In this document: one piece after another, positions 29,261-35,567 of the stretch | Position numbering within the stretch: the stretch's first letter is position 1 | Layout: each line of letters starts with the position of its first letter | Virus record (IMG/VR): IMGVR_UViG_3300042305_001773 | Coordinates: 141,045-205,044 of that record | Length of the DNA: 64,000 bases | Reading direction: 5' to 3' (one strand) | Origin: a virus | The notes under the pieces: model-generated | What the model saw: only the letters and a program-made list of their open reading frames with translations | Database searches by the model: none | Told to the model about the DNA's origin: nothing | Made by a program: the position numbers and the translations under genes

Positions 29261-30499
29261 TTACGTGCAGTTAACCTGAGCGTTTGGTTTCTTTTGGACT
29301 GTGATCGTGGCGTTGTCGATGAGAATATTAATGCCTGCGCCGCCAATCATATTTACGTTTGTACCGCCTACACCGTTGATAGTTGAAATAAGCTCACAAC
29401 ACGCAGGTCCGCCGCTTAAAAATTTATCAACCCACATAATCTCGGTTGGCATTTTTTCTTCTAACGTTTCCCAGCGCGACGCTGGCCACTCTTCGGCGGG
29501 GACACCCACTGGCGGCGGACCGTAAAACAGATAACTAAGAGTTGCGTTTGTTTGAACCCACGTTTTATTGTTCCACGTGTAGTAAATCGCGTTTTTGTGC
29601 TGGCAAAGCACTGGCGGTAATGGGCCGCAGTTTGGCGACGGCGGCGTGGGCTCTGATTCCCAGCCATACGTGTCGCCGGGCTTAGCGCCGGCACAGCCCG
29701 GAAGCGTTGAACTATCCGGCGTGTCCATAGTATCGATGTATTGCGTGGGCACAATCTTTGTTTCGCCGGCCTCGCCGTCAAACAACGGCAACTCGCCGCT
29801 GTTTGCGCACAGATCGTCGCCGTTTGAGCCCGCTCCCGCACCTTTTGCTGCCGTGACTGTTATCTCGTTTGAGCGGTCAGTTTGTGTAATTAAGCAGTTA
29901 TACCCTTCTTTGAGTCGAATGTCGCCCTTCATGCAGCGTGAATTCAACACAATTGCGCGGTTGTCGTTTGTCCCAGTCTGGTCGCACGGCGGGACGCGTA
30001 CGCGGTCGTAGTTGCCGACACTGATTGAGCGTAGGTATGCTTTGTTTAAGTTTTGAATGCGGCCCGGCTCAACCTGATAGTCGTTCGGCTGTAACGCCCA
30101 TACACCGTTAACGGCAGCGTCATTAAACGCTGCTGTCAGCGCTTCCAACGGGCCAGTCACAAGAAAGCCAGACCAGATCGGCTCTTCGGCGCACGGGTTT
30201 TCCGTGTCGACTGCGGACTCACTGTGTTCAAGTGCCCACTCGCCGGTATCGTGTCGAGTAAAAGAGACTGTAGCCGGCGACGCGTTTGTGCTAAACACAA
30301 ACTCAAATAAGCTGCCTACTTTTTTTACAGCTGACAGCCAAATTGTATGTTCGCTTTCGTCATACCGGGCGTCGAGGCCCATAATGAACCCTGCGTCCAG
30401 TACCGCGCTTGTGGGTAGCGGCGGAAGGGTGGCTGGTTTGTTGTAGATAAACGGATACGCGCGGTATTCGTTGTCGTTGTAAAATCCGGGACGAGGCAT
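29261..30499 (-). CDS. Cys-rich distal-tail protein, R-Y-P/ING family member 1, 412 aa
   Basis: The N-terminus [15 protein letters not shown] carries the family tag (R-x-Y-P-[FL]) shared with proteins at 30499, 31275 and 34623. The C-terminus has the ING motif [19 protein letters not shown], seen in the same position type in all five proteins of the block. The middle contains Cys-rich loops ([15 protein letters not shown]) and a WNNKTWVQT strand typical of fibre modules. It is probably a baseplate-distal adaptor to the giant fibre, whose ATG follows its stop after one base. Confidence 0.65.
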
Positions 30500-31275
30500 T
30501 AGACAACACTCCTGCCGACAGTATCAACAACAATTGTCTCGCCGTCAGCGTAAATTCGCAACACAGCGTCGGCGACTGCTTGATTTGTTGCTGTAAACGT
30601 GAAATTACCAAAGTCGTCGGGACCGCAACCGTTGATTGTTTTTAGATATCGCTTGTTCGGAAAATCGTCGCTTTGTGGTTCGCAGAGGAACCGGCGAAAC
30701 AGCGGCACGCCCACGATGTCGACACGAATGACGCCCGGCCCGTCTTGGCGCAGCACAACACCCTGATCGCCGACTAACCAGATATCGCCGGTCAGGAATT
30801 GTTTTGTCTCAGGCCGCACGGCTCGAACGCCCGGCTCGTTTGCGGGAATAGAGACGCTGCTTACAAATTCTGTCTGATCGATTTCAAACGTATACGTGCC
30901 GGGGCCCCAGCCAGAAAAGCGCGCAAGCCCCGTAGTTGTCGAGAGCAGCATTCCGGCTGGGCGACCGTATTGATCCGCAAACAGCAGTACGCCGTCTGCC
31001 GGCGGACTCAGCGGATTGTACGATGCCGACACGCGTGTGCTCAGCTCTTCATCGCCTACGTTTATTGTGACGCTTTGTGGCGCCACGACGATCGAAGATA
31101 TGTAAACACGTTGATACCCACCAATAATGAAAAACGACGCGTCAATAAACGTGTCTGGCGCGATTGAAATGTTTTCTGTAGTTTCGCTTTGCAGCCCGGC
31201 CGAGTCTGCAAACGGATACCGCGACGCTTCTTGCTCGTCGCGGAACTCTGGAAATAGAATTCGTGCGCCTGACAT
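30499..31275 (-). CDS. Distal-tail protein, R-Y-P/ING family member 2, 258 aa
   Basis: The N-terminus FRDEQEASRYPFADSAGL has the R-Y-P tag; beta-rich sequence follows (VYISSIVVAPQSVTINVG, then GPGTYTFEIDQTEF). LTGDIWLVGDQGVVLRQDGP and the ING motif YLKTINGCGPDDFGNFTF lie near the C-terminus. This compact version has only the tag, a beta domain and the ING element, and may represent the ancestral module. Start and stop overlap neighbours as TAATG. Confidence 0.65.
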   Translation of the reverse strand: MSGARILFPEFRDEQEASRYPFADSAGLQSETTENISIAPDTFIDASFFIIGGYQRVYISSIVVAPQSVTINVGDEELSTRVSASYNPLSPPADGVLLFADQYGRPAGMLLSTTTGLARFSGWGPGTYTFEIDQTEFVSSVSIPANEPGVRAVRPETKQFLTGDIWLVGDQGVVLRQDGPGVIRVDIVGVPLFRRFLCEPQSDDFPNKRYLKTINGCGPDDFGNFTFTATNQAVADAVLRIYADGETIVVDTVGRSVV

Positions 31276-34619: not shown

Positions 34620-34622
34620 GTG

Positions 34623-35567
34623 TCACCCCGACGCTGAGCAGCCCGAGTCGCCGAGCTGGCTCCCCAGTACGACCAGACTCATCTGTGTTACTTCAGAACC
34701 GAGCCGCGTAATAAAGTTTTGCAACGTTGTCACGCCGTCGCCAAACCGGTTGATTTGATTGACAATAGCGTCCAGCTCCGTGCAGCCGCAGCAAGGTTGC
34801 GCGCACGTGTCAGAAAACTTTAAACCGTTGCTCATCGGCGTGATTTGAATGCAATCGTCTGGAGCAAGAATAAAATTACCGTCTGTGCTGCACACGCCGT
34901 TGATACACCGAATACACGATCCAATTTCTGGTGTTTCGCAGTAGCACTCTTCGTTTAAGTTTGTACCCGAGATCGCGTCAAAAACGATTTCAGTTTCCGT
35001 GGCAAATGACACAGCGGTGATGCGCACGTTGTTTCCAGCGACAAGCGTTACGTCGCCGTAAATAGGCGCGCTCATTTCGCCGTTGTTTGATATGCGCAGC
35101 CGCGTGACCGCGCGCAGCATCGGGCGGATCGTATCCGGCTCTAGCTCGCCGGCTGCAAATGTAAACTCGTACAAACCCGGCGGCATTTGATCAATCTCAT
35201 CAAGCGTGCCGAGTACGACCCGCCCGACACAGTCATCAAAATCGTCTAAGCCGCCGAGCGCGTACGACCGATTAGGCTGGTAATTACTTCGGACAATGTT
35301 CGCCGCCGCCACGTCAACAGCTGTGCCGTTGTTGTCGTATCCGATAGTGATATTGAAACCGGTCGGGGCTATTAACAGGCTTTTGATAAAAAAACGATTG
35401 GGAGCAAACGCCAGCCCGGAATGAATTGGCAGATACAGCGCGACGATAAAACTATCGGGCAGTCTGACCGTGCCAGTCGGGTCTGTTTTGGTGGCGCGCT
35501 CGGTTAGCGGGTACGACCGCTGCGAGTTGTGATTGAGCCACTGTAGATTCCAGTTTCCAATCGGCAT
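34623..35567 (-). CDS. Distal-tail protein, R-Y-P/ING family member, 314 aa
   Basis: The tag NHNSQRSYPLTERATKTD is followed by a beta-rich region (SFIVALYLPIHSG, then RFFIKSLLIAPTGFNITIGY). The ING motif is CIRCINGVCSTDGNFILAPD, next to a Cys cluster (CAQPCCGCTELD). The end is helical (AIVNQINRFGDGVTTLQNFI). The N-terminal half aligns by eye with the 258-aa protein (IISSIVVAPQSVTINVG against IKSLLIAPTGFNITIG), supporting duplication. Confidence 0.65.
   Translation of the reverse strand: MPIGNWNLQWLNHNSQRSYPLTERATKTDPTGTVRLPDSFIVALYLPIHSGLAFAPNRFFIKSLLIAPTGFNITIGYDNNGTAVDVAAANIVRSNYQPNRSYALGGLDDFDDCVGRVVLGTLDEIDQMPPGLYEFTFAAGELEPDTIRPMLRAVTRLRISNNGEMSAPIYGDVTLVAGNNVRITAVSFATETEIVFDAISGTNLNEECYCETPEIGSCIRCINGVCSTDGNFILAPDDCIQITPMSNGLKFSDTCAQPCCGCTELDAIVNQINRFGDGVTTLQNFITRLGSEVTQMSLVVLGSQLGDSGCSASG

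Follow-up and report, generated by a model that had tools for sequence, protein, structure and literature searches.

The window, the whole 64-kb stretch of DNA analysed here, is the terminal part of a virus record of 205,044 bases and belongs to a contractile-tailed phage, since a tail sheath protein, a Baseplate_J-like protein and a terminase are all encoded in it. Five genes, designated P5 to P1, occupy positions 29261-35567 of the minus strand and are tightly packed, their starts and stops overlapping or lying 3 bases apart. The genes for the J-like protein (P10), P9, P7 and P6 are located immediately upstream of this block and P8 immediately downstream; indeed, the five genes sit between the baseplate genes and P8 in every relative. 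Table 1 gives an overview of the features.

Table 1. Genes of the tail region in the window; motif positions are residue numbers
Feature	Positions	Strand	Length (aa)	Characteristics
Tail sheath protein	55924..59157	-	1077	phrog_2839, 3.4e-10
Sigma-factor-like protein	42522-43376	-		phrog_351, 8e-9
P10, Baseplate_J-like wedge protein	39831..41552	-	573	PF04865, 1.6e-11; phrog_6, 1.2e-18
P9	38107..39828	-	573	Conserved neighbour; follows the baseplate J-like gene directly
P7	37465..38097	-	210	Conserved neighbour
P6	35581..37440	-	619	Conserved neighbour
P5	34623..35567	-	314	RSYPL at 17, ING at 222
P4	33009..34619	-	536	LDYPL at 25, ING at 252
P3	31275..33005	-	576	RRYPL at 15, ING at 226
P2	30499..31275	-	258	SRYPF at 18, ING at 214; minimal member, shared module only
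P1	29261..30499	-	412	RAYPF at 13, ING at 374
P8	24742..29259	-	1505	Repeats and collagen-like runs; adjoins P1 in every case
Second collagen-like protein	23840-24739	-	299	Directly after P8

P6 is a probable tail protein; its similarity to P1-P5 was undetectable by profile comparison. P8 is a probable long fibre with nine PGDC-type repeats at a spacing of 60-61 aa, followed by Gly-X-Y collagen-like runs (residues 1084-1439). It contains 69 cysteines (4.6%), and its length varies strongly among relatives. The C-terminal end of the second collagen-like protein resembles that of P8. The gene for the sigma-factor-like protein lies inside the tail gene cluster.

An earlier note on this DNA had described a YP[F/L] tag near the N-terminus and an ING motif in each of the five adjacent proteins, and coordinates as well as both motifs were confirmed. 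The pattern D-x-x-G-N/D-F/I, which had been reported to follow ING, is too strict, as the sequence after ING is looser (e.g. in P1). In shuffles of each protein, the co-occurrence of ING at any position with a tag among the first 30 residues had a probability of 1e-4 to 3e-4 per protein, which excludes chance for five adjacent genes. Neither tag nor ING was found in the neighbours P6, P7, P8, P9 and P10. Of the 37-39 orthologues per gene, 31-39 retain the YP tag and 27-38 retain ING, and the N-terminal 20 residues represent the most conserved block in P5, P3, P2 and P1. The idea that the ING turn is part of the phage tail fibre repeat of Pfam was unsupported in Pfam scans at E-values up to 1. 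Furthermore, P1, P3, P4 and P5, but not P2, are rich in cysteine (2.7-3.8%); the J-like P10 and P7 are almost cysteine-free. A CCGC or CCxC motif is conserved in P4 and P5. These cysteines could possibly provide metal sites or disulphides.

BLAST and single-sequence phmmer clearly linked only P4 and P5 (about 1e-9) among the five proteins, with a weak match between P2 and P5 and none for any other pair. Profiles were therefore needed, and orthologues were collected from IMG/VR, from 28 loci at first and then from 47, and for each gene a profile was built from 36-41 sequences. With whole profiles, hhalign gave 142 bits for P4-P5, 95 for P2-P5, 89 for P3-P5, 69 for P2-P3, 63 for P1-P5, 52 for P1-P4, 44 for P3-P4, 36 each for P2-P4 and P1-P3, and 26.4 for P1-P2. 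The comparison was repeated after masking of the ING region and of the N-terminus up to and including the tag, resulting in 100 bits for P4-P5, 56 for P2-P5, 51 for P1-P4, 44 for P2-P3, 43.5 for P1-P5 and 35 for P3-P5, all others falling below 20. The maximum scores of the controls were 30.0 bits for 300 column-shuffled profiles, 21.0 for 20 reversed profiles and 21.7 for 20 comparisons with the neighbours P6, P7, P9 and P10. Thus, six masked pairs exceed all controls and join P1-P5 in one connected graph, so that the family is real beyond its motifs: the five proteins are true paralogues, held together through P5. The unmasked score of P1-P2 is within noise and those of P1-P3 and P2-P4 are slightly above it, these pairs being linked to the family via P5 and P4; P2-P4, P1-P3 and P3-P4 lose their support once the motifs are masked. 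Serial duplication of a shared module, as postulated in the earlier note, is borne out by this all-against-all profile comparison, which the note had proposed and which detected similarity outside the short motif.

The alignments define the extent of the shared module. P2, P3 and P5 are collinear over about 220-240 residues, with residues 10-251 of P2 aligning to 9-252 of P5, and the alignment of P1 with P5 spans about 185 columns. Residues 160-323 of P4 are homologous to 134-279 of P5, ING and CCGC included. Because the match of P4 to P5 begins only at about residue 160, the N-terminal part of P4, apart from the tag, may be unrelated to P5. P5, the most conserved of the five, consists of the tag, a beta-sandwich (about 25-150), a beta segment with GDVTLVAG, ING, CCGC and a C-terminal coiled coil (262-292). 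In P3 the shared module (1-270) is followed by a small phage module (288-327) and a C-terminal jelly roll (about 384-576). In P1 an optional insert (about 245-358) splits the shared module ahead of the ING tail.

For P3 an AlphaFold2 model was built with 36 orthologues. Its mean pLDDT was 77.9, with values near 90 for residues 20-140 and for the greater part of 384-576. According to this model the C-terminal domain is a ConA-like jelly roll (Concanavalin A-like lectin/glucanase fold): it superimposed on CBM66 with a Z-score of 19.4 and an rmsd of 2.2 over 158 residues, the Foldseek E-value was 5.7e-6, and matches were also obtained with legume lectins (Z about 15-16) and, at Z 15.7, with the central fibre of mycobacteriophage Douge. 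The lectin-like domain which had been noticed on one member is hereby located in P3, and as judged from its modelled fold it is likely to bind host glycans. The P5 model (mean pLDDT 56.5) was confident for a sandwich at about 40-140 and weak outside residues 25-150, including a low-confidence C-terminal helix. Its best fold matches were weak C2-like sandwiches (Z about 5.5), which are meaningless alone, and no convincing viral match was obtained. The strand order, as compared by eye, is parallel in the N-terminal domains of the two models.

A total of 47 IMG/VR loci were compared, of which 45 cover all five genes and two are truncated. Each of the five genes is present as a single copy in all 45 complete loci, and the order is always P5-P4-P3-P2-P1, with the identity of P5 to the window protein dropping to 40-46% in the most distant ones. 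Some distant loci (L043, L045, L049) have extra sequence between P5 and P4. Since each orthologue scores best against the profile of its own gene, the duplications predate this lineage. The constancy of set and order points to the same conclusion, ancient duplications, and to five distinct parts of one structure; it argues for five distinct roles.

In the relatives, P5 (313-359 aa) and P2 (254-317 aa) are nearly constant in length and are free of any added variable domain. P3 (294-1228 aa), P4 (454-1021 aa) and P1 (299-486 aa) are variable, with extremes that may include wrong start codons, and among the five proteins the exchangeable parts are confined to these three. The C-terminus of P3 is absent or replaced in relatives: P3 of L028-L030 stops after the shared module, P3 of L037 carries an FGE-sulfatase domain (PF03781, 1.4e-15; C-type-lectin-like fold) in addition to a ConA-like C-terminus, and P3 of L046 has other sequence instead, with a sub-threshold match to DUF6242. 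Additional domains are found at the N-terminus of P4 in relatives, such as Laminin_G_3 (6.2e-13) in L043. The insert at 245-358 of P1 is present in the window phage, L003, L005 and L016; P1 of L010 and L020 has a different small insert near the N-terminus. Thus, the suggestion that different members bear different, swapped extra domains is supported, the swapping being visible in P3, P4 and P1 of relatives. Outside the five, P9 is lengthened to about 1770-1790 aa in L028 and L030, and a domain is common to P3 of L037 and P9 of L028 (36% over 238 columns, E 1.7e-26). In both extended genes (L028:1953-7328 for P9, L037:12479-16165 for P3) it lies among long Ser-rich linkers, and in L037 it overlaps the FGE-sulfatase match. 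The possibility that a diversity-generating retroelement lies behind the FGE-type domain was rejected, as a search of four records, of which some are fragments, revealed no reverse transcriptase.

The small module at 288-327 of P3 is of the YRWDGSxYV type and occurs in many unrelated phage virion proteins; stretches around it match 243 isolate phage records with low similarity and over short distances. PHROG 14839 was matched by two P1 members and by P3 members, which suggests that this module also moves. A module of this type has apparently been inserted in P1 of L010 and L020, too.

The shared module corresponds to no named family in Pfam or PHROGs, and searches of PDB sequences with the P5 and P3 profiles gave no match. 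In 50,697 isolate phage records, tblastn with P1, P2, P4, P5 and P10 gave no match, and P3 matched only via the short stretch around 288-327. By terminase and sheath the nearest isolates are the Vibrio phages D69, D148 and D181 and Salmonella phage Arash, whose tail genes are mostly annotated as hypothetical or structural, as judged by inspection of the annotation. The contig of one close relative (L052, RGNC01000002.1; 64% identity in P5) was binned with Synechococcaceae bacterium WB8_1B_136, which could point, if only weakly, to a cyanobacterial host or else reflect a binning error. The cyanophage marker psbA was not found in the record of the window phage.

Taken together, the five ancient paralogues probably form distinct, co-assembled parts at the periphery of the baseplate in a large phage with a contractile tail. 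Each would comprise an N-terminal module of YP tag and beta-sandwich, followed in most members by a beta segment that holds the ING turn. Through the tag, each part is probably anchored to the baseplate or to a sibling, and the strong conservation of the N-terminal 20 residues in P5, P3, P2 and P1 fits the expectation for a docking site. P5 and P2 would be constant structural subunits that build a frame; P3, and sometimes P4, P1 and P9, would present exchangeable surface-binding domains. The whole would then be a hetero-complex of paralogous arms in which P3 and P4 bind the host surface. Because the shared module could be assigned to no family of known function in any member, the location in the virion is derived from synteny; it is inferred, as are docking by the tag, a trimeric or heteromeric state, and sugar binding.

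The earlier note had instead proposed a cassette of alternative or layered receptor-binding proteins. Five alternative or parallel proteins, each directed against one receptor as in branched tail-spike complexes, so that the fixed set would mean a fixed host range, would account for a shared N-terminal module with differing additions and for the exchangeable lectin-type domains in P3, P4 and P1 of relatives. We nevertheless regard this as unlikely, since none of the complete loci shows loss, duplication or reordering, and P2 and P5 keep a near-constant length with no added domain. A cassette of alternatives is not supported by these data; a layered arrangement or hetero-complex is possible. 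It is very improbable that the five proteins have only short phage-fibre motifs (ING turn, N-terminal tag) in common and are otherwise unrelated: the loss of support on masking for the pairs near or slightly above noise (P1-P2, P2-P4, P1-P3) would agree with this, but the six pairs that exceed all controls when masked and the parallel predicted strand order of P3 and P5 would not. That the five decorate the tail shaft or head can hardly be maintained on one weak match of the 288-327 module of P3 to a head decoration family, as in all relatives the genes adjoin the Baseplate_J region and lie between those for baseplate and fibre.

More tentatively, and with somewhat less than even confidence, the paralogous hetero-assembly of five proteins can be proposed as a previously undescribed baseplate module of a widespread uncultured lineage of contractile-tailed phages of about 200 kb, in which a common N-terminal socket holds constant structural subunits as well as subunits with exchangeable adhesins. 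If so, binding domains could be exchanged among P3, P4 and P9 while the assembly stayed the same. The locus offers a clean natural case of a multi-part tail tip made by serial duplication in which the paralogy can still be read in the sequence. A wide lineage keeps the gene set unchanged, and the boundaries of adhesin-domain exchange are clear; these boundaries predict which subunit sets the host range in uncultured phages.

Comparable arrangements are known from other tails. Gp10, gp11 and gp12 of T4 are interacting proteins of the baseplate periphery, encoded by sequential genes on one message, and a common ancestral fold is thought likely (PMC3004832). The genes described here resemble them in being consecutive and related and in their presumed place at the baseplate periphery, but they differ in having five members, in a paralogy that is still detectable in sequence and in the ConA-type domain on one member. 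No relationship of P1-P5 to the T4 proteins was detected by sequence. The tail spikes TSP1-TSP4 of Ackermannviridae, which form a branched complex, combine linking domains conserved at the N-terminus with receptor-binding domains that vary at the C-terminus (PMC11414711). Here, too, several proteins share a conserved N-terminal module and some carry variable domains, whereas the gene set is constant and two members have no variable domain; scans of the shared module against Pfam and PHROGs revealed no XD/gp10-like domain. Giant phages encode candidate baseplate or fibre proteins that are paralogous and related to phiKZ gp131, e.g. family C of SPN3US (gp168-170) (PMC5694885). P1-P5 are likewise paralogous baseplate or fibre candidates, although they are much smaller and their shared module is without a PHROGs match. 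The five-gene set shows no kinship by sequence with any of these but may, by analogy, work like the systems of T4, Ackermannviridae and the giant phages.
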